Shown: positions 1,458-28,589 of the stretch, one piece after another | How the letters are laid out: each line of letters begins with the position of its first letter | How positions within the stretch are numbered: the first letter of the stretch is position 1 | From: Impatiens glandulifera | Lineage: Eukaryota > Streptophyta > Magnoliopsida > Ericales > Balsaminaceae | Direction of reading: 5' to 3' | NCBI RefSeq assembly: GCF_907164915.1 | Contig: NC_061862.1 | Location: forward strand, 138,561,520 to 138,625,519 | DNA: 64,000 nt | The notes under the pieces: model-generated | Told to the model about the DNA's origin: nothing | What the model saw: the letters and a program-made list of their open reading frames with translations, nothing else | Databases searched by the model: none | Made by a program: the position numbers and the translations under genes

Positions 1458-1522
1458 TTTATATAGATGGCGGTTCCAAGCGGTTTTGAAGATGAACCGT
1501 CAATCTAATGTTTTGGCGCCAA
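1458..1522 (-). promoter_or_regulatory. Putative promoter of E1 ORF3: TATA box plus E2F-like site
   Basis: On the minus strand a TATATAAA box lies at 1465-1458, about 112 nt upstream of the ORF3 ATG. About 50 bp further upstream is the palindrome TTGGCGCCAA (1513-1522), matching the E2F/DP consensus core. The same two sites with the same spacing occur in E2 (19139-19204). Several GGCGGTAA/GGCGGTT copies follow upstream. Promoter activity is inferred. Confidence 0.6.
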
Positions 1523-2635: not shown

Positions 2636-2738
2636 GGTGATGGGTAGTGAAGAAAAGTTTGAGAGAGTTCTTGAGCTTTCGAGTTTTAGAGAGAAGAATG
2701 CTTGAAGGCGTGTTTTTGAAAATGGGGGTTGAATCCCC

Positions 2739-2745
2739 TTTTATA
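2739..2745 (-). promoter_or_regulatory. TATA box upstream of E1 ORF2
   Basis: TATAAAAGGGG on the minus strand about 104 nt upstream of the ATG at 2635. A TATAAAAAGGGG box is at the matching position in E2 (20396-20402). Confidence 0.6.
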
Positions 2746-3059
2746 GTCTGGAGTGAATGAGAGCATTTAATGAGAGGATTTAAAAATCTAGCCGTTTATG
2801 CTTTGTCATTAATGTTTTTGTGATTTTCCAAGAGAATAAAGGCAAGTCTTGTCAAATCAAGTCAGGCATGCTTTTTGATAATGAGAATTTATGTTCCCAA
2901 GAGTGAAATGATTCATTTTTGATACGACGCATTGAATATTGTAGATTTCGACTTAGAAAGGAAAGAAATCCGATTCATTAATTTGAAGTACGAAACCGGT
3001 AGTACAGCAAAAATACCGGTTTTGTAAAGAAAAGATAAAAGAAAAGAGGAGAGACAGGT

Positions 3060-3821: not shown

Positions 3822-3911
3822 GTTTGTTTTTGAGAGAGAAAGAGGATTTTATCTCAAGAATTATGTTTGTGAATAGTGAGCTTGTGATGTTTTGAGAAGG
3901 GTTAAGGATGG

Positions 3912-3919
3912 TTTATATA
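3912..3919 (-). promoter_or_regulatory. TATA box upstream of E1 ORF1
   Basis: GGCTATATAAACC on the minus strand, 91 nt upstream of the ATG at 3821; conserved in E2 at 21564-21571. Confidence 0.6.
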
Positions 3920-4534
3920 GCCAGGGGATTCGGCTTGGTCTTAAATGAAGTTAAGCATGCCTGATGATGTCATCAGCTATTTAATAGACTTAACTTGTTG
4001 AAGTAACTAATGGTTATTTCCAAGGTAAATCTAATAATTACTAAGATAGCAATGATGAAAAATATCTATTGACAAGATGTAAGTCTCCCTCTCTTGATGA
4101 TGGACACATGTCGTCATCTCGATTGTGGTAGACTTGTTTTAATTAATCACAGGCTTCATTTTTCAGAACATGCACGAAAACTCGGTCAGTCATCTCAGGT
4201 TAACCGGAAAAGTTCATTTCATCAGACCAAAGTGCATATGTACTGAGCGGTTTTCCATGACCGGTTTTAGTAGGATATTTCCGTTTATGAAGAAAAGTTG
4301 ATTTATGTCAACAGTTGTTCAACTTTGGACTTGTTTTATCCACTTCAACCTGGTTACTTCAACCGTTTAATAAACATACATTTGATTTGAAATAATGAGA
4401 TAATCGGGCATAACTGGAGACTTCCTCCCGGTTAGCATATTTGATTTATTAATGGCCTATGTGAATATGGTTTGAGAAGCTTTAGCTTCTCCCTGAACAC
4501 ATATCCCGGTTTTGTATACAAGCATTCATCATGA

Positions 4535-6211: not shown

Positions 6212-7797
6212 GCTTTCGGCTTGCTGATCAAGGTTAGACTGATCGGTAGGTTGAACAGAGTCAGACCGACCAATTTCTTCAGTAGAAACTGAAGCGTCAA
6301 CTTTCTGCGGTAAGGCAGCTTGATAGGCTGAATTTCAACATCAACCGCTTGGTCCTTGACAAAGCGTCTAAAAACCGGAACCTCGTCTTCATCATCAGAA
6401 TAGATATTGAAATTTTCCATTATGTTGTGAAGGTCGAAGGGTAATGCAGTGTTTCGCTCAACCGATTCATCGAAAACAACGTGTGCGGTTTCTTCAACTG
6501 TTAAAGTCCTAGTATTGTATACTCTGTAGGCTTTACTCACAGCTGAATATCCCAACATTATTCCCTCATCGGATTTAGCATCAAAAGCGGTCAAGTACAT
6601 CTTGCCGTTATTGTGAACAAAGCATTTACTACCAAAAATTCGAAAATACCGTACACTTGGAATTTTATCAAAATAAATTTCAAAAGGAGTTTTCGAAAAC
6701 CGTTTAGTCACTAGAGATCGATTTTGTGTATAGCAAGCGGTGTTGATAGCTTCAGCCCAAAACTTTTGAGCGATACCCGAATCGGCTATCATTGACCTTG
6801 CGGCTTCCTTGAGAGTTCGGTTTCTTCTCTCAGCCAGGCCATTTTGTTGAGGAGTTCTGGCACTAGACAACTCGTGCCTAATACCGGAATCATCAAGAAA
6901 AGTAGTTAAATTACTGTTGATAAACTCAGTTCCTCTATCACTTCTAATTTTGTTTACTCGAATAGATTTCTCATTTTGTATTCTCAAAATCAGTTTAATC
7001 AAGTTTGAAGTTGCTTGATTTTTAGAAGCTAGGAAAGTGACCCAAGTAAATTTGGAGTAATCATCAACAACTACCATAGTATAATGCATGCCTCCTAGAC
7101 TAGTTACTTTAACCGGACCGAACAAGTCCATATGCAACAGTTCTAAACATCTTTCAGATTGATAATTTCCTTTACTTTTAAAGGATGATTTCACTTGTTT
7201 TCCCATTTGACATGCAGCACATACTTTATCTTTTGAAAATTTAACATTTGGAAAACCGTGAACCAGTTCCTTGGAACAAATAAAGTTAATCGTTTTGAAA
7301 TTCAAGTGATTTAACCGTTTATGCCAAAGCCAATTTGGATCATTTCCGGCTATCATACATACAGGTTTTTCGAAATCAGTTTTCCAGTTCACTTTGTAAA
7401 TGTTTCCTATCCGGTTACTGGTTAACAAAGTGTCATCATTTTGATTTTTGACTAAACATGAGTTTTTATGAAATTCAACCTTGTAGCCCACATCGCACAT
7501 TTGGCTTATGCTTAGTAAATTAAAGCTTAGTTTTTCTACTAATAGCACATTATTTATGGATAATTCACCATGGACAATCTTACCCTTGCCCACGGTTTTA
7601 CCTTTTGAATTATCCCCGAATGTGATGAATGCTCCGGTTTCGTACTTGATGTCGGTCAGTAGCTCCTTGTTTCCGGTCATGTGCCTTGAGCATCCACTGT
7701 CCAAGTACCATTCAGAATTCTTTAACCGATTGCTCCTCCTTACCTGCAACAAACAATTATTTACAACTTTTTGGTACCCACATTTAGTTGGGTCCAT
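6205..7797 (-). pseudogene. pol: E1 pol, 5' part: protease and integrase, ends at frameshift
   Basis: Starts at the ATG (7797) that overlaps the gag stop. An aspartic protease motif ([12 protein letters not shown], residues 31-42) is followed by the integrase HHCC zinc site and a DDE core: Asp in HMDLFGP, Asp in SDRGTEF and Glu in AERRNRTL, the last two spaced 35 residues apart. After residue about 490 the reading frame leaves the E2 alignment because of a one-base deletion near 6324. The last 40 or so residues before the stop at 6205 are therefore out-of-frame translation, not real protein. Confidence 0.92.
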
Positions 7798-9652
7798 GGT
7801 TGATTAGTCCCTTTGGGATCCAGACTTGAATTAGTCGGATCACTTTCCCGGTTATTGTTTTGATAATATTTGGCTTAACTTCTTGGCCGTTGCTCAAGAA
7901 TGCCTTATGTGGTGATGGACTTCTTTGATGTCGGTTTTTATTATTTTTATTTGGTTTCCTGTTGGCTTTCCTTCTCTCAGGATGAAGCCATTTTTCAGAT
8001 TCGTTAGGACCTACATACTTAAGCGTTTCTTCCGGTTTTAGGTCATTTTCGGTTTGTGAACTTTTGACAAATTTTACAAATGGAAGATTGTTTTTCGTTA
8101 GTTTCATCCCGTTAGATTGTTTTGTTTCATTTTGTTTACTTGGATCATAACCGATACCATATCTACACTTCGGATGTCGTTTATAATTACACATTTGTTT
8201 CACTGCTTGACGCGATCTCTCCCACGCAGCCGTGACGTACATTGCTCGTTCATCGGTTTCTATTACCGGTTGAACTGTCTCCTCATCATCCGAGAATAGT
8301 TCATCCGGTTCATGTGTTTTGATCTCATATGTTTTATCGTTTTCATCATTTATTTGTTCGGTTTTAGGTTCTACAGGTGTTGGCATATACGCAGATATAT
8401 TTCTGAACTCAGCAACCATTTGGTTGAGTGCAGATACTAGATCTTCTTTAGTAAATTCATCAGAAGAGAAATCAAATACCTCTTCGTCGTTTGCCATGAA
8501 GCATGTTACTTTCTCTTCACCATCTTCATTGTCGGAATATGCCCACTCGCTTCCACCATCGGATGCAATGAGAGCTTTTTGGATCTCCTTTCCTTCATCA
8601 GCATGTTGATCATTATTTCTTCGGTAGTCGTTTCGTTGGTTGTTGTTGTTTCCCCGATAATTGTTTCCTTGATAATTATTTCCCTGATACCGGTTGCCTT
8701 GATAATTATTCCCTTGATAATTATTTCCTTGATAATTTCCTTCCGGTTTTCTATCGTCTCTTCTTGGTTTTCTACACTCTGACCTGAAATGTCCAAAACC
8801 ATCACAGTTATAGCATCTTTTGTTTGATTTATCTACATAGTTATAATTAAAATCATTATTAGATGGTGGTTGGCTCTTCTTCATGAATTTCCCGAATTTC
8901 TGGGCTAGCATCGCCATCACATCGTCGGTTATTTGATCAGTGTTTTTGACTGGAGCCGGTGCGGTTGATACTGTAGCCGCCGGTTCCACCGATGTGACCA
9001 AGGCTCTTGTTGCGGTTGATATAGATGTTTCATCTTCGATCCGAGACTTGATCTCGAATTCGTAGGCTTTCAAATCCTCAAACACATCATGCAACTTCAT
9101 CTGCCCAAGGGTGCTAGACTCCCTCATCACCATGGTCTTGATATCCCACGTGCTTGGCAGTGATCTTAGAGCTTTGATGATCACTTCTCGGTTGTCATAC
9201 TTCTTTCCGAGTGTTTGAAGCTCGTTTACTACGCTGGTGAACCGATTGCTAAATTCCTTCATATTTTCTCCCGGTTTCATCCTTATGTTTTCATACTTCT
9301 GCGTAGCCACCAAGATTTTATTCTCCTTGGTTCTTTCGTTACCCTCGTGGATCTGGATAATCGTTTCCCAGGCTTCCTTTGCATTTTCGCACTCTGATAT
9401 CTTGTTCAAAGTGTTGTTATCTATAGCTTTATAGATGTGCCTCATGCAATGGTTGTCCAGGTTGCTTCTTCTCCGATCTTCACTCGTCCACTGGCTTTCC
9501 TCCTTGTTGATCTTGATCGGTCCTTCTTTCAGGACTCGGCTCATCTCATCATCTAACGTTATCAGATGTAGATACATCTGTTTCTTCCAACTGCTAAATG
9601 CTTCGCTGTTTAGCATTGGCGGCTTGTCGCTGTGGGTCATGCTTCCCACCAT
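7784..9652 (-). CDS. gag: E1 gag: capsid/nucleocapsid polyprotein
   Basis: A 622-codon ORF from the ATG at 9652. The frame stays open upstream into the LTR, but that part is before the primer site and is LTR sequence, so MVGSMTH is taken as the start. Residues about 1-230 are the copia Gag (UBN2/retrotransposon Gag) region. One CCHC zinc knuckle (CX2CX4HX4[15 protein letters not shown]) lies at residues 280-293 (8815-8774) and binds RNA in this family. It is followed by an Asn/Gln/Gly repeat tract built of NYQGN units. The 3' end (KGLINHGPN, stop at 7784) overlaps the pol ATG by 14 bp in a different frame. Confidence 0.93.
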   Translation of the reverse strand: MVGSMTHSDKPPMLNSEAFSSWKKQMYLHLITLDDEMSRVLKEGPIKINKEESQWTSEDRRRSNLDNHCMRHIYKAIDNNTLNKISECENAKEAWETIIQIHEGNERTKENKILVATQKYENIRMKPGENMKEFSNRFTSVVNELQTLGKKYDNREVIIKALRSLPSTWDIKTMVMRESSTLGQMKLHDVFEDLKAYEFEIKSRIEDETSISTATRALVTSVEPAATVSTAPAPVKNTDQITDDVMAMLAQKFGKFMKKSQPPSNNDFNYNYVDKSNKRCYNCDGFGHFRSECRKPRRDDRKPEGNYQGNNYQGNNYQGNRYQGNNYQGNNYRGNNNNQRNDYRRNNDQHADEGKEIQKALIASDGGSEWAYSDNEDGEEKVTCFMANDEEVFDFSSDEFTKEDLVSALNQMVAEFRNISAYMPTPVEPKTEQINDENDKTYEIKTHEPDELFSDDEETVQPVIETDERAMYVTAAWERSRQAVKQMCNYKRHPKCRYGIGYDPSKQNETKQSNGMKLTKNNLPFVKFVKSSQTENDLKPEETLKYVGPNESEKWLHPERRKANRKPNKNNKNRHQRSPSPHKAFLSNGQEVKPNIIKTITGKVIRLIQVWIPKGLINHGPN

Positions 9653-9680
9653 CTTTGGTTGCTTGAGTGTTAAGAACCTC

Positions 9681-9692
9681 GCTCTGATACCA
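9681..9692 (-). other. E1 primer binding site (initiator tRNA-Met)
   Basis: TGGTATCAGAGC on the minus strand, complementary to the 3' end of plant initiator tRNA-Met, two bases from the LTR end. The gag ATG is only about 28 nt downstream, a very short leader after the PBS. Confidence 0.9.
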
Positions 9693-9694
9693 CT

Positions 9695-10943
9695 TGTTAG
9701 GATCGGGGACGCCCTTGGAGGACCGGGGTGTTTTCCGGTTTCGGTAGGGTGATCGCTTTCAACAACACACAACTCTTTTGGTGATAGTCCGGTTAAAGAC
9801 TATAACCGTTCTCAGCACTGCACAACCTGTCACAGACTCTTGAACCGGGTTCAAGGGCGGAAATGTCTGTTTCAGGTTGAAGCAACGTTTGCGACTTTAG
9901 ATGATGTTTAAGAAGGAGGCGGTTTAGTGAAGGTGAGTGACTGGTTTTAGGAATATGATTAGTTTGCGGTTTTCGTTAAGAAAGCGGGAAATGAAAGCGA
10001 ATGAAAGAACACGAGACAAGGAAATTTGTTTATGGATGTTCGGAGCAAACCCTCCTACGTCACCCCTTCTTCTCAGGTTATGAGAAGGATCTCCACTAAC
10101 TCTTTAGAGTTACAATTACACTTCCGGTCGAGCCCAACTTCGCTACTCGCCGGTTACACCAAAACTCACACTTTGATGTAATACAACAACTCAACACAAT
10201 AACACACAAATGGCTTCCGGTTTTAGGCAAACCGGTTTTTGAATATAAGACTTTATCTCTCTAGAATTTAATGCTTTGATGATTTGCTTTCGTAATCCGT
10301 CACTTGCAGAACTGCATTGAATGAAGACGATCCATCTTCCTTTTATAGCTGAAAGTAGCTAACGGCTACTTTCTTCTCTCTCTTGCGGATTGGTTGATCG
10401 TCATCACGCCTGTTTGCAGAAGGATTGCTTGCACGCTTCAACTTCCTCAACACCTGGCATTCATGCAGGTAGCTCTGAGCATATGATGACATAGCCGGTT
10501 TTAAGATTGATACACGTGTTGAACATCCGCCTCCGGTTGTCAGCATCGGATCAACAAAGCATCATTGCTTTCCTCGCATGCTTCTGATCGGATCCGATCT
10601 TCTTTTATTCTTTCGAGACACGTTTCTTCCGTCATGGTACGTCACTCTTGAGATTTGAATCTTCTGACTTTTGATCTGTACTTTCCAGTTTCTGTGTCTT
10701 TGTGCATTATGATCCGGTTGGAGTGTAATCTTTTGTTCTTCGTTAACCGGTTGCTTTGAGAAGGTGAAGCCGGTTCCTGTGATCTTTTAACTTGATCACT
10801 TGAGGCTGGTTTCTTTGAAGTAGTAGCAACCGGTTTTTGATGCCTCAACCGGTTCCGGTTTGTCAAGTACCTGCACATGAAGATTAATCTCTGTTTAGTT
10901 TGTTTGTCTGGTTCAAAAATTAATCTACTTAATTTTTCTATCA
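9695..10943 (-). repeat. E1 5' LTR (1249 bp)
   Basis: Starts TGTTAGGA and ends CTATCA on the plus strand, giving TG...CA ends with short inverted ends. It abuts the PBS on one side and E3 LTR sequence on the other. It is closely related to the 1255-bp LTRs of E2 but with many small differences, so E1 and E2 are separate insertions rather than a duplicated segment. AACCGG/CCGGTT motifs are frequent. Confidence 0.93.
10341..10347 (-). promoter_or_regulatory. LTR TATA box, E1
   Basis: GCTATAAAAGGAAG on the minus strand, inside the LTR. Transcription would start near 10311, leaving about 615 nt of R-U5 before the PBS. The same box is in both E2 LTRs. Confidence 0.6.
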
Positions 10944-14576: not shown

Positions 14577-15831
14577 TGTTAGGATCGGGGACGCCCTTGG
14601 AGGACCGGGGTTGTATTTTCCGGTTTTGAAGTAAGGGAGGCCGCTTACGACAACACACACACCTTGGTGATAGTCCGGTTAAAGACTAAAACCGTTCTCA
14701 GCACTGCACAACCTGTCACAGACTCTTGAACCGGTGTTCAAGGGCGGAAGTGTCTGTTTCAGGTTGAAGCAACGTTTGCGACTTTTAGATGATGTTTAAG
14801 GAGGAGGATGTTTAATGAAAATGAGTGACCGGTTTTGGAAGTATGATTTGTTTGCGGTTTTCGGTAAGATAGCGGGAAATGAAAGCGAAATGAAAGAACA
14901 CAAGACACAGAATTTGTTTATGGATGTTCGGAGCAAACCCTCCTACGTCACCCCTTCTTCTCAAGTTATGAGAAGGATCTCCACTAACTCTTTAGAGTTA
15001 CAATTTACACTTCCGGTCGAGCCCAACTTCGCTACTCGCCGGTTACACCAAACTCACACTTTGATGTAATACAACACAACACAATAATCACACACAAGGA
15101 TTTCCGGTTTTAGGCAAACCGGTTTTAGAACATAAAACTTTATCTCTCTAGAATTTAATGCTTTGATACTTTGTTTTCGTAATCCGTCACTTGCAGAACT
15201 TTCATTTAATGAAGACGATCCATCTTCCTTTTATAGCTGAAAGTAGCTAACGGCTACTTTCTTCTCTCTCTTGCGGATTGGTTGATCATTAGCACGCCTG
15301 TTTGCAGAAGGGTTGCTTGCACGCTTCAACTTCCTCAACACCTGGCGTTCATGCAGGTGACTCTGAGCGGATGATGACATAACCGGTTTTCAGATTGATA
15401 CACGTGTTGAACATCCGCTTCCGGTCGTCAGCATCGGATCACCAAAGCATCATTGCTTTCCTCCCATGCTTCTGATCGGATCCGATCTTCTTTTATCTTT
15501 TCGAGACACGTTTCCTCCGTCATAGTACGTCACTCTTGAGATTTGAATCTTCCGACTTTTGATCTGTACTTTCCGGTTTCTGTGTCTTTGTGCATTATGA
15601 TCCGGTTGAAGTGTATTCTTCTATCTTGGCTAACCGGTTGCTTGAGAAAGTGAGGCCGGTTCCTGTGATCATTTGTCTTGATCACTTGAAGCCGGTTTCT
15701 TTGATATGATAGCAGCTGGTTATTGATGCACGATTTCCGGTTCCGGTTTGTTCAGTGCCTGCACATGAAGTTTAATTTCTGTTTAGTTTGTCTGGCCGGT
15801 TCCAAAATTAATCTACTTAATTTTCCTATCA
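14577..15831 (-). repeat. E2 3' LTR (1255 bp)
   Basis: TGTTAGGATC ... CCTATCA, same length as and apparently identical to 27335-28589. TATA box on the minus strand at 15229-15235. Preceded, in element orientation, by the polypurine tract AAAAAGGGAGAAAT. Confidence 0.96.
15229..15235 (-). promoter_or_regulatory. TATA box in E2 3' LTR
   Basis: GCTATAAAAGGAAG on the minus strand. Because this is the 3' LTR, the box points into flanking E3 sequence. Confidence 0.55.
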
Positions 15832-15987
15832 ATTTCTCCCTTTTTGATTATTTAGAATAAATATTCAAAAATTGTAATGTGTGGCCGGTTTTAAGAAAAT
15901 TAACTTACTTAATTTTTCTATCAATTTCTCCCTTTTTGATTATTTAGAATAAATATTCAAAACTTGTAATGTATGGCCGGTTTTAAA
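15806..15987 (-). repeat. Tandemly duplicated LTR-edge/polypurine module
   Basis: Two copies of a roughly 92-bp unit comprising the last 25 bp of the LTR, the polypurine tract and about 50 bp of 3' UTR: one at the real LTR edge (PPT at 15832-15846) and one internal (PPT at 15924-15938). The second copy again has TTTTTCTATCA directly before the tract, so it mimics an LTR boundary. Confidence 0.85.
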
Positions 15988-16190
15988 GATTTTGTTTGAG
16001 AGAAATGTGTTTGAAAAACATGTGTTTGATTTTTGAACAGTGTATGTTTTGAAAAATACAAGAGGTCGGTGAACATGTATGTTTTGGAAACATAAAAAGT
16101 ATGTTTGAAAAATATAGAAGTTAGCAAAAGAAACCAAGTTCCGAAACACATCAAAAACATAATTGTTCAAAGTAATAATAAAAATAGAGT

Positions 16191-19025
16191 TTAAGACTTG
16201 GATGATCCCCCCTTGTCTTGCTCTTTTTCAAGCACTTTGTCCAGACGTTTCCTTGCTTCTTCTGTTCTTGCTCTTTGCTCTCTAGCACGTCTGTCAGCAT
16301 CTATCACCACACCTGCCCACACACTTGTATGGCCGGGGACCTTTTTCCTAAGATTGAAGTTGGCACAAGCTGGTTTTGGCGGTGGACGAGGTTGGACAGT
16401 CAAAGGTCTGCAGCTTGGATTTGCGGTGGATTCTCCGGTTGACCTTCTTTTCCGTCTGTTGAGTTCCTCCGAGTCTTCTTCTTCTTCTTCATCCAGCGGT
16501 TCCGCATTCAGTCCAACCGGTTCGGCTGTCTTCAATTCTGCCCTTCTTAACACTTCTTTAACCGCGCTTCGTTTCTTCTTGTTCCGAGTACTCATGGAAT
16601 GAGATGATTGACCCTGTACCGGTTCCTGAGCGTTTGCCTGCTCCTCTTCATTGCATTGTTGGGCCAACTCATGATCCTTGTCTTCAAGTTCCTTCTGAAC
16701 CCGTTCTCTTTCAATCTCTTCTTCTTGCAACTTCCGAGCGGTTTCAGCGTCTTTTTCGATTTGAGTTTGTGTTGATCCGACTTGAACTTTGGACATTTCA
16801 CCGATCTGGATTGCCATTGCTTGCAGCATATCCAGAAGTGGAGCGGTTGCGGTTTCGACAGACTTGAAGATCATGACTTGGACCGTTGTTTGCATAGTTG
16901 TATCCATCATAGCTTGTAGAGAGTTTACCATTTTGTCTTCAGCTGCTGAGATCCTTTCTTCGGTTACCGCCTTGAAGTTCCCCAGGCATGAATTAACGGT
17001 TTCCGCCACTGCTTGCTTAATCTGATCGATGTCCAGAGCTTTGATATGTTGAGCGGTTTCTTGTTCCGGATTTTCAGATGTGCCGGATGTTTCCCCATTA
17101 AGAAAGAAAGGTCTACTTTGATATTGCTCAGGATTATTGAATTGACGCTTGCAGGTATCCCACCATTTATTATCAAGGCGTTCATAGCTTTGCACAAGCC
17201 GTTCTCGTACTCCAATAAATCGCTCCGCCATCTTCATTTCAATCGGTTCCAGCTCTTTTCCTTGGATTTCTTGAAATGCATTCTCAACAGCCTGTAACCG
17301 CACGTTCTCAAGAATTACTGGAGCTTTGCTCATTGCCGGTTGAATTAGTTGGGTGTTGGCTAACTCGAGTGCCTGTTCTTCTAACTGGATGAGTGCGTCC
17401 CATTGCTTGTTTCCTCTGAAACCTGGAAGCATGTCGGATAGTTTGGTCTCACTTCGGAGCCTCACCCACCGAATATATGGAGCCAACGCTTCACTTGCAC
17501 CCTTATTCATATCTTGAATAAATTCATCGAACAACTCATTTTCTTGCTCTAACGTATACGGGTATTCTTCTCCGGTTGTGGCTTCAGTCTGGGGGTCGAC
17601 CTGCAATGTGCCCGTTCCGGTTTCAGTTTCTTCAATCATAATGCCCTTGCCTTTATCTGCCTGAGAAGGGCCTTCTGGAACTTCCTTGTCTCCTGCGGAA
17701 CCGGAAGGTTCCCTTTCTTCAATATTTCCCTCCTGAGCCGGAGGTGCATCTTCAGTTGACTTGGTCGTCTCATCGACCGGTTGGATTTCTGGTTGATCAG
17801 GTACTTCATCCTGATTTTCTGGGTTCCGACGACTAGAAACGTCGTCTTCTTCGGTTTCTTTAGTGATCTCTTGGACCACATTCTGAATAGCTTCTGAAGT
17901 GTTCAAGCCCACTTCGGCTAACACTTCATCGGCTTGCTTGCTTGGGGACTTGGAGGTTGCAGAATCAACGTTTCTCTCTGCTTCCTCCATTGGATTTGAT
18001 TTGTTCTCCTCGCTCCCCGAAGATTCGGTTTGCTTTGGAGAATCAGATGGAATAAGAGTTGGAACAACGGTATTGATGGGAATTGGTTGGAATATCTCTG
18101 CGGTTCTTTCAGGAGGATTGTCCGAGGAAAGCGTTCTCTCGGAGTCCGCAGGTTTCTTCGAGCTCTTCTTTGCTGATACCTTCTTCCTTCTTTTTGGTTC
18201 TGGTTGAGCTTCTGCCTCAGCCGCTTTTCTGGACGGTTTCTTTTGACGTTTTTCTTCTTCAACCGGAACCGATGAGCTGGCTCCCTTGGATGACTTTGAT
18301 TTTGCGGTTTTCGGCTTGATCGTCTTCTCCGGTTTTTCTGCCACTGACTCAGAGTCAAGGATGTTGGATATCGGAAGCGGTACGCCTTCACCTAGTTCCA
18401 CATTCAGGAACTCAAGAATCTTCACGATTTGCATAGCATAGGCCTGCACCCGGCCTTCTTTCTTGATTATCACTTGACAGAATTCTTCGTACAGCACGTA
18501 ACCCCAGTCCACCTTATCGCCGCGGACGATGGCTAACAACATTCTTAGCTTAAACTTTGTAAGATTGTCGAAGTTACCTCCCCTTCCTTGGAGCGATTTG
18601 GAGATGACGGTCACTAACCATCTGTATTCCGGTTTCAACTTGATTCTCCGGCTGCTGTGGAGCACCAGGTCCTGACCTGAAAGGGATACAACCAACCGGG
18701 CAGCATTTGATTCTGCGTCGGTTAAGTCGAATTTCAAGTCCGAGCCTGTGTTGGGTAGACCGAGAGCCTCCGCGAAAATTTCTTCAGTTATAAGAACCGC
18801 CTTCCCGTTGACGGTAGCCGATATTTTTCTCTTCAACAGTGTCGCCGTCGCCAAGAACTCCGTCACCGCCGCCGGATAGAGGGTGAACGGACCGGAGAGG
18901 AACTTCTCCAACCCAGAATCTCGAAGGAGTTGAAGAACAGCTTTGTTCTTGTCTTCAGCGTGCTGGTCGATGTCTTCAAAATCAACCTGCAACATCCATT
19001 GAAACGGGGCTTTGCCTAGATCCAT
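16191..19025 (-). CDS. Accessory ORF3 of E2, 944 residues
   Basis: Intact ORF. Residues 1-225: the domain common to the three accessory proteins (DFEDI at 15-19, SGLEKFL at 37-43, VDWGY at 172-176, YAMQI at 196-200). Residues 230-295: basic, with PEPKRRKK near 276, a likely nuclear signal. About 300-500: acidic, low complexity. About 505-660: a second, more ordered part including PYIRWVRLRS and paired tryptophans. About 780-830: charged heptad-rich sequence (DAETARKLQEEE) likely to form a coiled coil. The tail 905-944 is again highly charged. No membrane segment or signal peptide. It is preceded by its own TATA box and followed by the polypurine modules. Function unknown; a DNA- or RNA-associated structural or regulatory protein is conceivable but unproven. 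Confidence 0.9.
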   Translation of the reverse strand: MDLGKAPFQWMLQVDFEDIDQHAEDKNKAVLQLLRDSGLEKFLSGPFTLYPAAVTEFLATATLLKRKISATVNGKAVLITEEIFAEALGLPNTGSDLKFDLTDAESNAARLVVSLSGQDLVLHSSRRIKLKPEYRWLVTVISKSLQGRGGNFDNLTKFKLRMLLAIVRGDKVDWGYVLYEEFCQVIIKKEGRVQAYAMQIVKILEFLNVELGEGVPLPISNILDSESVAEKPEKTIKPKTAKSKSSKGASSSVPVEEEKRQKKPSRKAAEAEAQPEPKRRKKVSAKKSSKKPADSERTLSSDNPPERTAEIFQPIPINTVVPTLIPSDSPKQTESSGSEENKSNPMEEAERNVDSATSKSPSKQADEVLAEVGLNTSEAIQNVVQEITKETEEDDVSSRRNPENQDEVPDQPEIQPVDETTKSTEDAPPAQEGNIEEREPSGSAGDKEVPEGPSQADKGKGIMIEETETGTGTLQVDPQTEATTGEEYPYTLEQENELFDEFIQDMNKGASEALAPYIRWVRLRSETKLSDMLPGFRGNKQWDALIQLEEQALELANTQLIQPAMSKAPVILENVRLQAVENAFQEIQGKELEPIEMKMAERFIGVRERLVQSYERLDNKWWDTCKRQFNNPEQYQSRPFFLNGETSGTSENPEQETAQHIKALDIDQIKQAVAETVNSCLGNFKAVTEERISAAEDKMVNSLQAMMDTTMQTTVQVMIFKSVETATAPLLDMLQAMAIQIGEMSKVQVGSTQTQIEKDAETARKLQEEEIERERVQKELEDKDHELAQQCNEEEQANAQEPVQGQSSHSMSTRNKKKRSAVKEVLRRAELKTAEPVGLNAEPLDEEEEEDSEELNRRKRRSTGESTANPSCRPLTVQPRPPPKPACANFNLRKKVPGHTSVWAGVVIDADRRAREQRARTEEARKRLDKVLEKEQDKGGSSKS

Positions 19026-19138
19026 TGATGATTTTTGATGAAAAGATGAAGATTGATGATGATCGGAGAGAGAGAATCTTTGAAGTTCTGGAAATCTTTA
19101 GAGAGAGAAAGCGCATGTGTTGAATGAACTGTCTTGAG

Positions 19139-19204
19139 TTTATATAGGTGGCGGTTCCAGGCAGTTTTGAAGATGAACCGTCACTTTGGAGTTTTTGGCG
19201 CCAA
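19139..19204 (-). promoter_or_regulatory. Putative promoter of E2 ORF3: TATA box plus E2F-like palindrome
   Basis: TATATAAA at 19146-19139, about 114 nt upstream of the ATG; TTGGCGCCAA at 19195-19204, about 50 bp further upstream, in the context TTTTTGGCGCCAATTTTCCC. Spacing matches E1. Confidence 0.6.
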
Positions 19205-19533
19205 TTTTCCCTCCAAAAGTTACTGCCGTAACTTTGGGCGGTAAAGGCTGATTTTGATGGGCGGTAAATTTTGAAAGGTAAAACCATGGGCGGTTATGAT
19301 TTTCAGATTTTCATTTTTGCTTGAGATTTCGGTTTTTGTTACATCTTGTTAACCGGAATTTGTGAAGTTAACTTTAAGTTTGAGTATGAGTTAGAGAAAC
19401 CGGAATGAAACAATGAGAATGAAAAATTGAAAGACTAAAATATTTCATTGATATAAGAAAGAAGAGACATAATAGCGGTTCTGGTCGTACAACAAAATGA
19501 CCAGAAACCGGAAACGAGAATACAGAAAGAGGT

Positions 19534-20292
19534 TTATTCGGTGAACCACCCTCCTTCCAGCCTTCTTTCGTACCACTTGTCGATGGTGTTCTGAGGAGAC
19601 CGTTCCTTGATCCTACACATACACTTATAGATCATGTCTATAGTGATAGTGTTGAAAGATCCAACCGGAACACCTTTTCCAAGGTTGCGACGTTTGGACA
19701 TGAGGAATCGGGTGATTTGAGGGGCGTAGCTGATCTTTCCCCTCTTACCGGTCATAAGCAGCTTCAGCTTATTGAATAGATAGGATGACCAGTTGATATC
19801 GGTTTCTCGGATGATGGCTATCATAATGTCGAATGCCTCCCGGCTATAGTTTTGGTTGGGCATTCGGCCTATGATAGACCGTTGGACCAAGTCTTGAAAG
19901 ACTTGATAGTGGGGGGCGAGGTCTTCTTTCTTCCCGAAGTCCTTGACAGGAGCGTAGGAAGAAGAGAAAATCTTGAAGAAGATTTCTTTAGCCGGTAGAT
20001 GCGGCGTTGGAAAGTCGGAGAAACCTTCCGTTGGAAGTTGAAAGAATGTGGCAAATTCCTCCTCAGAAAACTGGAGGAATTGGCCATCGATGATGGTGCG
20101 AATGCTGCCATCATCAAGAACGTGACCGTTGTTGAAGAATTCGCACACCTCATCCACGAGAATGAGGTCCGAACCCTTAAGGAAACCTTTCAGCCCAGAA
20201 GCTATGATGTGTTCAAAGATGCATTCATAGTAAGAACTGTGCTTGATGTCCTCAAAGTCGATGATCAAGGTGTTTCTGATTTCAGTAGACAT
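19534..20292 (-). CDS. Accessory ORF2 of E2, 252 residues
   Basis: Intact; differs from E1 ORF2 by scattered substitutions and one codon of length. Family landmarks: IIDFEDI (9-15), SGLKGFLKGSDLIL (32-45), LPTEGFSDFPTP (about 85-97), INWSSYLFNKL (about 170), SYAPQITRFLM (about 190). No recognisable enzyme motif. Many differences from E1 appear conservative or silent, which would fit protein-level constraint but needs counting. Confidence 0.88.
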   Translation of the reverse strand: MSTEIRNTLIIDFEDIKHSSYYECIFEHIIASGLKGFLKGSDLILVDEVCEFFNNGHVLDDGSIRTIIDGQFLQFSEEEFATFFQLPTEGFSDFPTPHLPAKEIFFKIFSSSYAPVKDFGKKEDLAPHYQVFQDLVQRSIIGRMPNQNYSREAFDIMIAIIRETDINWSSYLFNKLKLLMTGKRGKISYAPQITRFLMSKRRNLGKGVPVGSFNTITIDMIYKCMCRIKERSPQNTIDKWYERRLEGGWFTE

Positions 20293-20395
20293 GATGAGGA
20301 AGGAGTGAGGAAGACTTAGGAGAGTTCTTAAGCTTTGAATTCTTAGAGAGAGGAATGCTTGAATGCGTGGTTTGAAAAATGAAGATTGAACCCCT

Positions 20396-20402
20396 TTTTA
20401 TA
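20396..20402 (-). promoter_or_regulatory. TATA box upstream of E2 ORF2
   Basis: GCTATAAAAAGGGG on the minus strand about 104 nt upstream of the ATG at 20292. Confidence 0.6.
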
Positions 20403-20712
20403 GCTGAGAATGAATGATAGCATTTAATGCAGGGATTTAAAAATGTAGCCGTTTATGCTTAGGTATTAATGATTTTGTGGTTTTCCAAGAGAATAACAGC
20501 ATGTATTGTCAAATCAATTCAGGCATGCTTTTGATACTGAGAATTTATGTTTCCAAGAAGGGAATGATTTGCTTTGATACGGCGCATTTAATGTTGTAGA
20601 TTTTGATTTGGAAGAAAGAGAGATCTGTTTCATTAATTCAAATACAGAAACCGGTGGTACAACAGAATACCGGTTTTGTAAGGAAAAGAGAAAGACAAAA
20701 GAAAAGACAAGT

Positions 20713-21474
20713 TTAGACGTTCGATGATTCAGCTGTTTGAGCGGTTGAAGCCTCAGCCGCTTCAATTCTTCTCGCCTTAACCGCTTCCCATCGGTCGATC
20801 ATCTCCTGCACTCGTTCTTTGGTGAGCACGTGCCTTGGATGCAGAGTGACGAACGCTCCAGAATGGATCTCCAGACTTGCGCAGAAACCGCTCAGCTGAG
20901 GAGCGTATCCGGTTTTGTTGGAGAGAATCATCCTCTTCAGATTGCTGAAGATGATCCAGGACCAGTTGACCGGTGTCCCAACCGTTACAGCTATCATCAT
21001 CTCGAAGACCCTCTGAGTGTATTGATAACTTTTCTCTCTGCATAACACAGATTTTCCCAGAATCTCGCAGAGAATCTGGTACTTGTGAGAAAGTTTACTT
21101 TTAGCACCCCAGGGCTTAACCGGGATGTTGGATCCAGAAAACCGGCGACACATTTCTTCCATTGTCACCGATGAATAGGTTAAGTCGGTTACCCCTTCAT
21201 TGGGTAAACCGCAATAGACAGCGAAATCCGTCTCGCTGAAGAGGAATTTTTGGCCGTAAACCTGTGCAACGAGTATTTCTCGGTGCACTTCTTTCACGGT
21301 TTCGAACAGTTCTTCGACTACAAGGTAGTCGATGATAAACCTGTTCTCAAGGAAACTTCTTAGCCCGCTCCTTTCAATGGCTAAGAACATCTCTTTGACT
21401 TCATGGTCCTCATACTGATAGATTGATTCAAAATCTGCCAGTAGGATCTTCTTGGCTAAAGGGTTGGAGTTCAT
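20713..21474 (-). CDS. Accessory ORF1 of E2, 253 residues
   Basis: Intact and nearly identical to E1 ORF1. The frame extends upstream to 21561, but that ATG lies at the TATA box and would be outside the mRNA, and E1 does not conserve it; MNSNPLAKK at 21474 is therefore the start. Shared domain: ADFESI (12-17), SGLRSFL (37-43), CGLPNEGVTDL (about 88), VNWSW (about 172), GYAPQLSGF (about 190), VLTKERVQEMIDRW (about 220). No membrane or signal features. Function unknown. Confidence 0.88.
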   Translation of the reverse strand: MNSNPLAKKILLADFESIYQYEDHEVKEMFLAIERSGLRSFLENRFIIDYLVVEELFETVKEVHREILVAQVYGQKFLFSETDFAVYCGLPNEGVTDLTYSSVTMEEMCRRFSGSNIPVKPWGAKSKLSHKYQILCEILGKSVLCREKSYQYTQRVFEMMIAVTVGTPVNWSWIIFSNLKRMILSNKTGYAPQLSGFCASLEIHSGAFVTLHPRHVLTKERVQEMIDRWEAVKARRIEAAEASTAQTAESSNV

Positions 21475-21563
21475 GTTTGTTTGAGAGAGAAAAGGTGGTT
21501 TTATCTCAAGGATGATTCTTGTGAATAGTAAACTTGTGATGTTTTGACAAGGATTAAGCATGG

Positions 21564-21571
21564 TTTATATA
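21564..21571 (-). promoter_or_regulatory. TATA box upstream of E2 ORF1
   Basis: GCTATATAAACC on the minus strand, 90 nt upstream of the ATG at 21474. Confidence 0.6.
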
Positions 21572-22177
21572 GCCCGTGGATTCGGCTCAGTATTAAATGA
21601 AGTTAAGCATGCTTGATGATGTCATTGCCTATTAAATGGACTTAACTTGTTGAAGTAACTAATGGTTATTTCCAAGGTAAATCTAATAATTACTAAGATA
21701 GCAATGATGAAAAGTATCTATTGATAAGATGTAAGTTTCCCTCTCTTGATGATGGACACATGTCGTCATCTCGATTGTGGTAAACTTGTTTTTAATTTAT
21801 CACAGGCTTCATTTATCAAAGCATGCACGAAAACTCGGTTAGTCATCTCAGGTTAACCGGAAAAGTTCATTTCATCAGATCAGAGTGCATGCGTACTAAT
21901 CGGTTTTCCATGACCGGTTTTAGTAGGATAATTCCGTTTTATGAAAAAAATAGTTGATTGATATCAACAATTGTTCAATTTTGGATTTATCTTATCTACT
22001 TCAACCTGGTTATTTCAGCCGCTAAGTAAACATACATTTGATTTGACATAATGAAGTAGTCGGGCATAACCGGAGTTTTCCTCCCGGTTAGCATGTTTGA
22101 GTTTATTAATGGCCTATTAAACTGAGAAGCTTTTAGCTTCTCCCTGAACACATATTCCGGTTTTACATGCATCATGA

Positions 22178-25100
22178 TTATATCAATTGATTTAAATTAG
22201 TAAGACCCAGAATATTTCGAAAATGTGAAAACTTAGCTTCCTGTAGCGGTTTCGTGAAGATGTCCGCTACTTGTTGCTCGGTTGACACATATTCCAGCCG
22301 GATGTGTTTCTCCTGAACATGCTCCCGGATGAAATGATGTCGAATGTCGATATGCTTCGTTCTTGAGTGCAACACCGGATTGTATGTAATCGCTATGGCG
22401 CTGGTGTTGTCACAGAAGATAGGAGACTCTTTTGCTTCTATTCCGAAGTCCCTGAGTTGCTGTTGAATCCAGAGGAGTTGTGCACAGCAGCTTCCAGCCG
22501 CTAAGTACTCTGCCTCTGCGGTTGACGTTGCGACGGACGTTTGCTTCTTGCTGCTCCAGGTAACTAACCGGTCACCCAGAAACTGACAGGTTCCACTTGT
22601 ACTCTTTCTGTCGATTTTGCATCCCGCGTAATCGGCATCGGAGTAGCTTATTAGATTGAAGCTCGAGTCTTTTGGATACCAGAGTCCCACTTCTTGAGTT
22701 CCCTTTAGATATTTTAATATTCTCTTAGCCGCCGTATAATGAGATTGCTTTGGATTTGCCTGGAACCTCCCGCATACTCCAACCGCAAACAGAATGTCAG
22801 GTCGGCTAGCTGTAAGATATAACAGCGAACCGATCATTCCTCGATATGCTGTGATGTCAACCGCTTGACCATCATCATCTTTGTCCAGCTTCACGGAAGG
22901 ACTCATTGGCGTAGCCGCTTCGGCACAAGTATCCATCCCAAATCTCTTCAGCAATTCGGATGTATACTTCGGTTGGCTTATGAAGATTCCGGCTTCCATT
23001 TGCTTAACCTGAAGTCCTAGAAAGAAACTCATTTCCCCCATCATACTCATTTGAAATCTATCAGTCATCATTTTCGAAAATTTGTCACATAGCTTTGGAT
23101 CGGTTGACCCAAATATGATGTCATCAACATAAATTTGAACAAGTAAAATTTGCTCCTTTCTTTCAAATTTAAAGAGAGTTTTATCTACTGAACCGATTGT
23201 AAATTTGTGATCAAAAAGAAATTGAGTCAAAGTATCATACCAAGCTCTTGGTGCTTGTTTCAATCCGTAAAGGGCTTTATTCAGCCGGTAAACGTGATTT
23301 TCATGTTCTGAATTTTTGAAACCTGGAGGTTGATTGACATACACCTCTTCATTTACTTTACCGTTTAGAAAAGCGCTTTTTACATCCATTTGATAAACTT
23401 TAAACTTTTTGAAAGCTGCATATGCTAAAAATATTCTAATGGCCTCAAGTCTAGCTACAGGTGCGAATGATTCTTCAAAATCAATTCCTTCTTCCTGTTT
23501 ATAGCCTTGAGCCACTAACCGGGCTTTGTTCCTCGTAACTAAACCGTTTTCATCGAGTTTATTTCTGAATACCCATCGTGTGCCTATAACCGGTTTATTT
23601 TTCGGTCTAGGAACTAGATACCAGACTTTATTTCTCTCAAACTCGTTTAATTCCTCTTGCATTGCCAAGATCCAATCTGGATCTGACAGTGCTTCATCCA
23701 CCTTTTTCGGCTCAATTTGTGATATGAAAGCAGAGTTTCCATAGTGATCCAAATTTTGTTGCCTAGTTCGGACGGGTGAGGATATGTTACCTATTACTAG
23801 TTCAAGAGGATGATTTCTGTTCCTTCTGAGGTTAATCCGAGACGTGTCTACCAAGCTTTCGGCTGGCTGATCAAGGTTAGACAGATCGGTAGGTTGAACA
23901 GAGTCAGACCGACCGATTTCTTCAGTAGAAACTGAAGCGTCAACTTTCTGCGGTAAGGCAGCTTGATCAGGTTGAATTTCAACATCAACCGCTTGGTCCT
24001 TGACAAAACGTCTAAAAACCGGAACCTCGTCTTCATCATCAGAATAGATATTGAAATTTTCCATTCTGTTGTGAAGGTCGAAGGGTAATGCAGTGTTCCG
24101 CTCAACCGATTCATCGAAAACAACGTGTGCGGTTTCTTCAACTGTTAAAGTCCTAGTATTATATACTCGGTATGCTTTACTTACAGCTGAATATCCCAAC
24201 ATTATTCCCTCATCGGATTTAGCATCAAAAGCGGTCAAGTACTTCTTGCCGTTATTGTGAACAAAGCATTTACTACCGAAAATTCGAAAGTACCGTACAT
24301 TTGGAATTTTATCAAAATAAATTTCAAAAGGAGTTTTCGAAAATCGTTTAGTCACAAGAGATCGGTTTTGTGTATAACAAGCAGTGTTGATAGCTTCAGC
24401 CCAAAACTTTTGAGCTATACCCGAATCGGCTATCATTGACCTTGCGGCTTCCTTGAGAGTTCGGTTTCTTCTCTCAGCCAGGCCGTTTTGTTGAGGAGTT
24501 CTGGCACTAGACAACTCGTGCCTAATACCGGAATCATCAAGAAAAGTAGTTAAGTTGCTATTAATGAATTCAGTTCCTCTATCACTTCTAATTTTGTTTA
24601 CTCGAATAGACTTTTCATTTTGTATTCTCAGAATCAGTTTAATCAAGTTTGAAGCAGCTTGATTTTTAGAAACTAGAAAAGTAACCCAAGTAAATTTAGA
24701 GTAATCGTCAATAACTACCATAGTGTAATGCATGCCTCCTAAGCTTGTTACTCTAACCGGACCGAACAAGTCCATATGCAGCAGTTCCAAGCATCTTTCA
24801 GATTGATAATTTCCTTTACTTTTAAAAGATGATTTCACTTGTTTTCCCATTTGACATGCAGCACATACTTTATCTTTTGAAAATTTAACATTTGGAAAAC
24901 CATGAACTAGTTCCTTGGAACAGATAAAATTAATCGTTTTGAAATTCAAGTGGTTTAACCGTTTATGCCAAAGCCAGTTTGGATCATTTCCGGCTATCAT
25001 ACACACAGGTTTTTCGAAATCTGTTTTCCAGTTTACTTTGTAAATGTTTCCTATCCGATTACCGGTTAACAAGATTTCATCATTTTGATTCTTGACTAAG

Positions 25101-25441
25101 CATGAGTTTTTATGAAATTCAACTTTATAGCCCACATCACACATCTGGCTTATGCTTAATAAATTAAAACTTAGCTTTTCTACCAATAGCACATTATTTA
25201 TGGAAAGTTCACCATGGACAATCTTACCCTTGCCCACGGTTTTACCTTTTGAGTTATCCCCAAATGTGATGAATGCTCCGGTTTTGTATTTGATGTCGGT
25301 CAGTAGCTCCTTGTTTCCGGTCATGTGCCTTGAGCATCCACTGTCCAAGTACCATTCAGAATTCTTCAACCGATTGCTCCTCCTAGCCTGCATCAAACAA
25401 TTATTTACAACTTTTTGGTACCCACATTTAGTTGGGTCCAT
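22178..25441 (-). CDS. pol: E2 pol: protease, integrase, reverse transcriptase, RNase H (1087 residues)
   Basis: Uninterrupted copia-order polyprotein. Protease DSG at residues 33-35. Integrase zinc site H159, H164, C193, C196; catalytic D224, D287, E323. RT: conserved Asp 686 in the [12 protein letters not shown] block and YVDD at 771-774. RNase H: D935/D937, E976/E978, D1011. All catalytic residues are present. The start ATG (25441) lies inside the gag stop overlap, in the +1 frame relative to gag. Product would process Gag-Pol, copy the RNA and integrate the cDNA in the nucleus. Sequence style places it with Sirevirus-type elements (inference). Confidence 0.96.
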
Positions 25442-27293
25442 GGTTGATTAGTCCCTTTGGGATCCAGACTTGAATGAGTCGGATCACTTTCCCGGTTACA
25501 GTTTTGATAGTGTTTGGCTTAACTTCTTGGCCGTTGCTCAAGAATGCCTTATGTGGTGATGGACTTCTTCGATATCGATTTTTATTATTTTTATTCGGTT
25601 TCCGGTTGGCTTTCTTTCTCTCAGGATGAAGCCATTTTTCAGATTCGTTGGGACCTACGTACTTAAGCGTTTCTTCCGGTTTTAGTTCATTTTCTGTTTG
25701 TGAACTCTTGACAAATTTTATAAACGGAAGGTTATTTTTCGTTAGTTTCATCCCGTTAGATTGTTTCGTTTCGTTTTGTTTACTTGGATCATAGCCGATA
25801 CCATATCTACATTTCGGATGTCTTTTATAATTGCACATTTGTTTTACTGCTTGACGTGATCTCTCCCACGCAGCCGTAACATACATTGCTCGCTCATCAG
25901 TTTCTATTTCCGGTTGAACTGTCTTCTCATCATCCGAGAATAATTCATCCGGTTCATGTGTTTTAATTTTATATGTTTCATCGTTTTCATCATTTATTTG
26001 TTCGCTTTTAGCTTCTACAGGTGTTGGTATATACGCAGATATATTTCTGAACTCAGCAACCATTTGGTTGAGTGCAGAAACTAGATCTTCCTTAGTAAAT
26101 TCATCAGAAGAGAAGTCAAATACCTCTTCGTCGTTTGCCATGAAGCATGTTACTTTCTCTTCACTATTTTCATCGTCGGAGTATGCCCATTCACTTCCAC
26201 CGTCTGATGCAATGAGAGCCTTTTGGATCTCCTTTCCTTCATCAGCACGTTGATCATCATTTCTTCGGTAGTCGTTTCGTTGATTATTGTTGTTTCCCCG
26301 ATAGTTGTTTCCTTGATAATTGTTTCCCTGATACCGGTTACCTTGATAATTATTTCCCTGATAATTTCCTTGATAGTTTCCTTCCGGTTTTCTATCATCT
26401 CTTCTTGGTTTTCTACATTCCGACCTGAAATGTCCAAAACCATCACAGTTATAGCATCTTTTGTTTGATTTATCTACATAGTTATAATTAAAATCATTGT
26501 TAGATGGTGGCTGGCTCTTCTTCATGAATTTTCCGAATTTCTGGGCTAGCATCGCCATCACATCATCGGTTATTTGATCGGTGTTTTTGACTGGAACCGG
26601 TGCGGTTGATACTGGAGCCGCCGGTTCCACCGATGTGACTAAAGCTCTTGTTGCGGTTGATGTAGATGTTTCATCTTCGATCCGAGAATTGATCTCGAAC
26701 TCGTAGGCTTTCAAGTCCTCAAATACATCATGCAACTTCATCTGCCCAAGGTTGCTTGACTCCCTCATCACCATGGTCTTGATGTCCCACGTGCTCGGCA
26801 AGGATCTTAGAGCTTTGATTATCACTTCTCGGTTGTCATACTTCTTTCCGAGTGTTTGAAGCTCGCTTACTACGCTGGTGAACCGGTTGCTAAATTCTTT
26901 CATATTTTCTCCCGGTTTCATCTTTATGTTCTCATACTTCTGCGTAGCCACCAAGATTTTATTTTCCTTGGTCCTTTCGTTTCCCTCGTGGATCTGGATG
27001 ATCGTTTCCCAGGCTTCCTTTGCATTTTCGCACTCTGATATTTTGTTCAAAGTGTTGTTGTCTATAGCTTTGTAGATGTGCCTCATGCAATGGTTGTCCA
27101 GGTTGCTTCTTCTCCGATCTTCACTTGTCCACTGGCTTTCCTCCTTGTTAATCTTGATCGGTCCTTCTTTCAGGACTCGGCTCATCTCATCATCTAGTGT
27201 TATCAGATGTAGATACATCTGCTTCTTCCAACTGCTAAATGCTTCGCTGTTTAGCATTGGCGGCTTGTCGCTGTGAGTCATGCTTCCCACCAT
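25428..27293 (-). CDS. gag: E2 gag (621 residues)
   Basis: Intact Gag starting at MVGSMTH just after the PBS; the upstream open frame is LTR sequence. One CCHC knuckle ([14 protein letters not shown]) sits in the middle, followed by NYQGN-type Asn/Gln/Gly repeats with one less Asn than in E1, so the tract is length-variable. The C-terminal part is acidic, then basic. It overlaps pol by 14 bp. Confidence 0.94.
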
Positions 27294-27320
27294 TTTGGTT
27301 GCTTGAGTGCTGGGAACCTC

Positions 27321-27332
27321 GCTCTGATACCA
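27321..27332 (-). other. E2 primer binding site (initiator tRNA-Met)
   Basis: TGGTATCAGAGC on the minus strand, two bases inside the LTR end. Confidence 0.92.
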
Positions 27333-27334
27333 CT

Positions 27335-28589
27335 TGTTAGGATCGGGGACGCCCTTGGAGGACCGGGGTTGTATTTTCCGGTTTTGAAGTAAGGGAGGCC
27401 GCTTACGACAACACACACACCTTGGTGATAGTCCGGTTAAAGACTAAAACCGTTCTCAGCACTGCACAACCTGTCACAGACTCTTGAACCGGTGTTCAAG
27501 GGCGGAAGTGTCTGTTTCAGGTTGAAGCAACGTTTGCGACTTTTAGATGATGTTTAAGGAGGAGGATGTTTAATGAAAATGAGTGACCGGTTTTGGAAGT
27601 ATGATTTGTTTGCGGTTTTCGGTAAGATAGCGGGAAATGAAAGCGAAATGAAAGAACACAAGACACAGAATTTGTTTATGGATGTTCGGAGCAAACCCTC
27701 CTACGTCACCCCTTCTTCTCAAGTTATGAGAAGGATCTCCACTAACTCTTTAGAGTTACAATTTACACTTCCGGTCGAGCCCAACTTCGCTACTCGCCGG
27801 TTACACCAAACTCACACTTTGATGTAATACAACACAACACAATAATCACACACAAGGATTTCCGGTTTTAGGCAAACCGGTTTTAGAACATAAAACTTTA
27901 TCTCTCTAGAATTTAATGCTTTGATACTTTGTTTTCGTAATCCGTCACTTGCAGAACTTTCATTTAATGAAGACGATCCATCTTCCTTTTATAGCTGAAA
28001 GTAGCTAACGGCTACTTTCTTCTCTCTCTTGCGGATTGGTTGATCATTAGCACGCCTGTTTGCAGAAGGGTTGCTTGCACGCTTCAACTTCCTCAACACC
28101 TGGCGTTCATGCAGGTGACTCTGAGCGGATGATGACATAACCGGTTTTCAGATTGATACACGTGTTGAACATCCGCTTCCGGTCGTCAGCATCGGATCAC
28201 CAAAGCATCATTGCTTTCCTCCCATGCTTCTGATCGGATCCGATCTTCTTTTATCTTTTCGAGACACGTTTCCTCCGTCATAGTACGTCACTCTTGAGAT
28301 TTGAATCTTCCGACTTTTGATCTGTACTTTCCGGTTTCTGTGTCTTTGTGCATTATGATCCGGTTGAAGTGTATTCTTCTATCTTGGCTAACCGGTTGCT
28401 TGAGAAAGTGAGGCCGGTTCCTGTGATCATTTGTCTTGATCACTTGAAGCCGGTTTCTTTGATATGATAGCAGCTGGTTATTGATGCACGATTTCCGGTT
28501 CCGGTTTGTTCAGTGCCTGCACATGAAGTTTAATTTCTGTTTAGTTTGTCTGGCCGGTTCCAAAATTAATCTACTTAATTTTCCTATCA
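27335..28589 (-). repeat. E2 5' LTR (1255 bp)
   Basis: Apparently identical to the 3' LTR at 14577-15831. TATA box on the minus strand at 27987-27993, transcription into gag. Confidence 0.96.
27987..27993 (-). promoter_or_regulatory. LTR TATA box driving E2 genomic RNA
   Basis: GCTATAAAAGGAAG on the minus strand about 650 nt upstream of the PBS. Confidence 0.6.

Follow-up and report, generated by a model that had tools for sequence, protein, structure and literature searches.

A SIRE-type copia retrotransposon of Impatiens glandulifera with three paralogous genes after pol that may encode anti-silencing factors

The element E2 and its three additional genes

A window of 64,000 nucleotides from Impatiens glandulifera (contig NC_061862.1, positions 138,561,520 to 138,625,519) contains a full-length SIRE-type copia retrotransposon, E2, that carries three paralogous genes (open reading frames ORF1, ORF2 and ORF3) downstream of pol and in the same orientation. 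Its features include long terminal repeats (LTRs), a target-site duplication (TSD), a primer-binding site (PBS) and a polypurine tract (PPT):

14577..28589, minus strand: E2, full-length SIRE-type copia retrotransposon, 14013 bp, with identical LTRs, TSD CACAC, PBS and PPT
27335..28589, minus strand: 5' LTR, with 19 AACCGG/CCGGTT sites and TATA box GCTATAAAAGG (first T at 27993)
25428..27302, minus strand: gag, 624 aa from MVGSMTH (Pfam Retrotran_gag_2)
22178..25441, minus strand: pol, 1087 aa, in the +1 frame with respect to gag (Pfam Pol_BBD, gag_pre-integrs, rve, RVT_2)
21564..21572, minus strand: TATA box CTATATAAA, candidate internal promoter 1, its first T 97 bp ahead of the ORF1 start codon
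20713..21474, minus strand: ORF1, 253 aa counted from MNSNP (282 aa if an upstream ATG is used), a single domain with a predicted VANC21-like fold
20395..20403, minus strand: TATA box CTATAAAAA, candidate internal promoter 2, its first T 110 bp ahead of the ORF2 start codon
19534..20292, minus strand: ORF2, 252 aa, paralogue of ORF1
19193..19204, minus strand: TTGGCGCCAAAA, palindromic site upstream of ORF3
19139..19147, minus strand: TATA box CTATATAAA, candidate internal promoter 3, its first T 121 bp ahead of the ORF3 start codon
16191..19025, minus strand: ORF3, 944 aa, N-terminal paralogous domain (~1-230, weak PF20167) and charged tail with basic clusters
15804..15986, minus strand: 92-bp unit (LTR tip and PPT) in two copies, a duplicated PPT (repeat comparison)
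14577..15831, minus strand: 3' LTR (LTR comparison)

The limits assigned to the element by an earlier note on this DNA are exact, as judged by the LTR ends, the 5-bp TSD, the PBS (AGTGGTATCAGAGC) and the PPT (AGGGAGAA, followed by AT/TG). The two LTRs show 0 differences across 1255 bp, which indicates a very recent insertion. Pol is of copia type, with integrase upstream of reverse transcriptase (RVT_2) in the Pfam scan, and the CCHC knuckle of gag scores 18.7 bits against zf-CCHC, slightly below the Pfam cut-off of 20.8. Judged by these features, E2 belongs with the SIRE-type copia elements, and it is very young. It resembles Sirevirus/SIRE (Maximus) elements in its copia domain order, +1 pol frame, tRNA-Met-type PBS, PPT followed by AT/TG, duplicated PPT, CCGG-rich LTR repeats and sense ORF after pol; the large gag, +1 pol and duplicated PPT match the description in PMC2829016 (statements on published work refer to the available excerpts of the papers cited by PubMed Central, PMC, identifier). 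Of the published Sirevirus marks (a PPT octamer, AGGGGGAG, that lies 10 bp upstream of the 3' LTR, an AT/TG attachment site and several PPTs), the last two are present, whereas AGGGGGAG is absent and the octamer is AGGGAGAA. E2 differs further in having three paralogous genes, where Sireviruses with an env-like gene or eORF-3'F have one ORF, in the lack of a membrane segment in these genes and in the TATA box before each of them.

ORF1, ORF2 and ORF3 are intact and share a collinear domain of ~230 residues, with homology far beyond chance (BLASTP E of 7e-30 for ORF1/ORF2, 2e-18 for ORF1/ORF3 and 9e-16 for ORF2/ORF3). The domain motifs described in the earlier note are present: DFE, at residues 14-16 of ORF1 and also in ORF2 and ORF3 of E2; SGLxxFL; V/I-N/D-W; and YAPQ (YAMQ in ORF3). 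Its further statements, that the third gene adds about 700 residues and that none of the genes encodes a membrane segment, are likewise borne out: the ORF3 tail beyond the shared domain consists of ~700 charged residues with basic clusters, and the highest 19-residue Kyte-Doolittle means are 1.27, 1.06 and 1.13 for ORF1, ORF2 and ORF3, respectively. Pfam family PF20167 (Transposase_32) aligns with 145 residues of the ORF3 N-terminal domain (E 3e-8; 34.1 bits, below the Pfam cut-off of 45); the Pfam scan found no match to it in the full ORF1 and ORF2 proteins of E2, and among isolated domains it matches two of six members (best E 6.8e-10). Transposase_32 has been reported in the 3' additional ORF (aORF) of sunflower Athila (PMC11728184); Athila is a Ty3/gypsy element, whereas E2 is copia.

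All seven proteins matching ORF3 at E <=0.01, among 7994 candidates scored, are Impatiens glandulifera gene models, which points to Ericales rather than to the Lamiales proposed in the earlier note and indicates that the ORF3 family is multicopy in Impatiens under several unrelated names. One of these proteins (P0007, named sesquiterpene synthase 2-like) joins terpene synthase domains to pieces of ORF3, with 91% identity to ORF3 of E2 in the best stretch; either a gene has received an insertion here, or the gene model is a chimera.

Selection on the genes and their candidate promoters

A related element, E1, lies at the start of the window and is cut by it:

1..10943, minus strand: E1, 90% identical to E2, same gene order
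9695-10943, minus strand: E1 5' LTR
3060-3821, minus strand: E1 ORF1, intact
1874-2635, minus strand: E1 ORF2, intact
2-1345, minus strand: E1 ORF3, open for 448 codons to the window edge, so that its completeness cannot be called

Thus the expectation that E1 also carries the three genes is confirmed for ORF1 and ORF2, and for ORF3 (in which DFE is replaced by DFA) as far as the window reaches. A frameshift at 6205-6211 splits pol of E1 into two overlapping ORFs; the accessory ORFs are still open.

Comparison of E1 with E2 gives ratios of non-synonymous to synonymous divergence (dN/dS) of 0.053 for ORF1, 0.130 for ORF2 and 0.126 for the first 448 codons of ORF3, with non-synonymous deficits significant at Fisher p of 9e-27, 6e-27 and 2e-33, respectively; the values for gag (0.068) and for the two parts of pol (0.104 and 0.045) are comparable. 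Neutral evolution of ORF1-3, which the earlier note had named as a sign of passenger sequence, is therefore rejected: the genes are under purifying selection comparable to that on gag and pol. Paralogues are 26-31% identical, whereas E1/E2 orthologues are 96% (ORF1), 80% (ORF2) and 92% (230 residues of ORF3) identical in protein sequence, so the triplication is much older than the split between E1 and E2. The module arose by old tandem duplication and has been kept by selection, and the three genes are almost certainly paralogues maintained by the element. For the E1/E2 pair, synonymous divergence (dS) lies at 0.22-0.29 across gag and pol and is higher in ORF1 (0.42), ORF2 (0.87; 19534-20292 vs 1874-2635; ~3x gag-pol) and ORF3 (0.44), with p of 4e-3, 3e-14 and 6e-5, respectively, vs gag plus pol. 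Nucleotide identity drops to 79-81% in the stretch reaching from the spacer between ORF1 and ORF2 to that between ORF2 and ORF3. The accessory block thus has a history unlike that of gag-pol, most simply explained by recombination between element families.

The spacers between the ORFs look like ordinary gene spacers, with TATA and AATGAA signals. Each of the three spacers, in both elements, contains a single TATAWAW within 300 bp upstream of the ATG, at -97, -110 and -121 (ORF1, ORF2, ORF3) in E2 and at -98, -110 and -120 in E1. Every one is preceded by C, as is the TATA box of the LTR, and TCAGCTATAAAA is common to the LTR and the ORF2 spacer; gag-pol of E2 contains four TATAWAW, none with a preceding C, and the antisense strand of E2 contains none. 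The chance of a site at -130..-80 is 0.039, 0.042 and 0.007 for the three E2 spacers, jointly ~1e-5, for an interval picked after the sites were seen; if any position within 300 bp is allowed, the values are 0.22, 0.21 and 0.05, jointly ~0.002 (joint values are products of the E2 per-spacer values, the E1 spacers not being independent of E2). The six leaders, taken from 30 bp past the start of the box to the ATG, contain one ATG in 476 nt vs 60 in 2640 nt before the box; their G content is 4-7% vs 11-18% before the box, so that this scarcity of G alone would account for part of the missing ATGs. The palindrome TTGGCGCCAAAA, which we take to be an E2F-type site, occurs twice in the window vs 0.01 expected and is confined there to the ORF3 spacers of E1 and E2; the elements being related, the two occurrences count as one event.

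These patterns suggest that each of ORF1, ORF2 and ORF3 probably has its own internal promoter. Such a promoter was hypothesised for Sirevirus env-like genes by Peterson-Burch and Voytas, none having been conclusively identified according to PMC2829016; PMC3414828, citing other work, lists two mechanisms of env-like expression, stop suppression and an internal promoter, and describes the function as unproven. A comparable case is gene23 of the maize element Grande, an accessory gene after pol that is transcribed from its own promoter and encodes a nuclear protein (PMC7264820). It differs in being antisense and single, whereas ORF1-3 are sense and three.

Predicted fold and candidate target

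Among 350,542 chains searched with Foldseek, VANC21 was the same single outlier for models of two of the paralogous domains (E 0.05-0.08). With models built from six sequences, at a predicted local distance difference test (pLDDT) score of 65-73, a VANC21-like fold of the shared domain is likely. VANC21 is an anti-silencing protein that binds DNA sequence-specifically and serves another kind of plant transposon in escaping silencing. For DUF1985, no match was listed in the six domain members at E up to 10, a range in which HMMER filters drop most matches above ~0.1. VANC21 binds a short motif in dense arrays within its own element, and these arrays evolve by tandem repetition (PMC5735166); the structure of VANC is mentioned as unpublished work (PMC12859917, PMC8756742). 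VANC proteins belong to VANDAL (MULE, Mutator-like element) DNA transposons, whereas ORF1-3 lie in a copia LTR retrotransposon in three copies, without detectable sequence similarity to VANC or DUF1985; in addition their candidate motif occurs in coding DNA too, and their anti-silencing activity is putative. PMC12844716 names VANC and says that epigenetic modulation by Tork and Athila ORFs awaits investigation. Among the matches listed for the open-licence PMC literature (titles and starts of abstracts), none links SIRE/copia accessory ORFs to VANC, a weak absence; nor does any match listed describe a copia element with three paralogous ORFs downstream of pol, which is also weak, subscription papers lying mostly outside this literature.

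The candidate target is AACCGG, which is concentrated in the LTRs of E2 and its relatives in the window. Besides E1, these are:

44809..48877, minus strand: E3, older degenerate SIRE-type element with gag pieces (48877-47211), truncated pol and one decayed domain gene
32443-36100, minus strand: E4, short internally deleted SIRE-type derivative with two LTRs and PBS at 35290-35301

The decayed gene of E3 (45523-44809) is closest to ORF2 in its first part (44%) and to ORF1 in its second (36%). In E4, whose LTRs are 88-90% alike over their longest pieces, the remnants comprise only gag and the end of pol, and no copy of ORF1-3 was found; mobilisation of E4 in trans could be possible. The earlier note asked whether most related full-length elements lack these genes; in the window, three of the four SIRE-type elements recognised (E1, E2 and E3) carry at least one copy of the domain gene, and E4 carries none.

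AACCGG/CCGGTT occurs 19 times per LTR in E2 vs 0.46 in shuffles and 18 times in E1 vs 0.44; in the two LTRs of E4 it occurs 7 and 4 times vs 0.29 and 0.23 expected (8.1 and 5.0 per kb), and in the LTR region of E3 6 times vs 0.47 expected, three of the six lying inside a 57-bp tandem repeat, with 0 in the E3 body. The LTRs of E2, E3 and E4 align with each other over only ~100 bp, except for a 438-bp, 68% match running from gag into the first part of the LTRs of E1 and E4. CGG-CCG repeated motifs are described for Sirevirus LTRs and, in env-bearing elements, also upstream of the env-like gene (PMC2829016). That AACCGG is the target of the ORF1-3 proteins is possible but less likely than not.

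The 57-bp repeat, which bears AAAACCGG, lies in the E3 5' LTR region (48872-50500). Beyond the outer end of this region stands a PPT-like ATTTCTCCATTTTTGATT, as though an LTR came after an internal region. Elsewhere in the window, a tandem array of 26/54/80-bp units lies between E1 and E2 (12714-13206), and an inverted repeat (60250-61455) has arms 84-90% complementary, ~0.5-0.9 kb apart, with 21-bp tandem repeats between them. An ORF fragment at 54656-55510 is presumably Hsp70-like, and an ORF at 39649-40752 presumably F-box/kelch-like, as labelled from their translations.

Possible functions of ORF1, ORF2 and ORF3

The reading that we tentatively favour, from the modelled fold, is that ORF1-3 may be VANC-like anti-silencing factors. 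A separate RNA polymerase II core promoter would drive each gene, so that the proteins could be made while the LTR promoter is under silencing or has yet to fire; they would enter the nucleus and bind the AACCGG-core clusters that fill the LTR, whereupon DNA methylation would be lost at the LTR and its promoter would work. The three paralogues may differ in binding specificity or partners, and the long charged tail of ORF3 may be an effector or oligomerisation arm. Weighing against AACCGG as the target, the motif is also enriched in coding sequence of E2 (20 in gag-pol vs 1.35 expected), and a comparison of E1 with E2 shows no more conservation of its sites than of other CG six-mers. The motif could be due just as well to a host transcription factor. 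In sunflower, CG methylation of SIRE elements is lost between the LTRs, with CG peaks kept at the boundaries (PMC12844716), which does not fit LTR-directed demethylation in that species.

Other explanations overlap with one another, and the likelihoods given here are not meant to add up with that of anti-silencing to a whole. It is unlikely, to our judgement, that ORF3 (and ORF1-2) are Sirevirus env-like or structural genes, particle-associated or of movement type, with no role in DNA methylation and expressed by splicing, stop suppression or from genomic RNA. They sit after pol, where Sireviruses carry their env-like genes, such an ORF is present in 74% of SIRE elements, falling into 19 groups that show little or no similarity to one another (PMC6317226, which raises the question whether SIRE post-pol ORFs have any function), and selection on a par with gag and pol fits any conserved function of the element; however, env-like genes share transmembrane and coiled-coil domains (PMC3414828), whereas no membrane segment is present here (maximum 1.27), and the predicted fold matches a DNA-binding protein and a TATA box of its own precedes each ORF. 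We regard with the same scepticism the possibility that ORF1-3 are DNA-binding proteins of VANC21-like fold that steer integration, transcription or nuclear import and do not counter methylation. Such a fold implies contact with DNA, not demethylation, and AACCGG may be a transcriptional activator site, as suggested for the repeated motifs of Sireviruses (PMC2829016); the sole outstanding structural match is nevertheless to an anti-silencing factor, and the present evidence does not separate this reading from that of anti-silencing.

Coincidence, by which the VANC21 match and the TATA boxes would arise from low-confidence models and A+T-rich DNA, leaving genes of no assigned function, seems improbable. 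Models of pLDDT 65-73 from six sequences, Foldseek E values of 0.05-0.08 and a chance of 0.05-0.22 per 300 bp for a TATA box would allow it, but one and the same outlier for two paralogues among 350,542 chains, itself an accessory protein of a plant transposon, and a TATA box at matching position in three of three spacers (~1e-5 for the post hoc interval, 0.002 for anywhere in 300 bp) speak against it. That the genes are passengers, host sequence that one lineage picked up and has tolerated although the element gains nothing from it, is very improbable: such transduction is known (PMC7264820), and the ordinary-looking gene spacers with TATA and AATGAA signals fit it, but dN/dS of 0.05-0.13 between E1 and E2, the age of the triplet, far older than the split between them, and the copy in the divergent E3 are contrary to it.

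Taken in full, the proposal that the three genes of a copia element form a self-promoted anti-silencing module with the VANC fold, which recognises the AACCGG arrays of its LTRs, and by extension that part of the env-like/Transposase_32 genes of plant SIRE and Athila elements are sequence-specific anti-silencing factors with the Sirevirus CGG-CCG motifs as their targets, is doubtful. What is unusual relative to ordinary SIRE-type post-pol genes is the triplication, the candidate promoter for each gene and the predicted link in fold to anti-silencing proteins. LTR retrotransposons form the largest part of many plant genomes, and E2 makes the function and expression of Sirevirus post-pol genes testable. 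If the proposal is true, self-encoded, sequence-specific anti-silencing, described in the sources available for Mutator-like DNA transposons, would extend to LTR retrotransposons.
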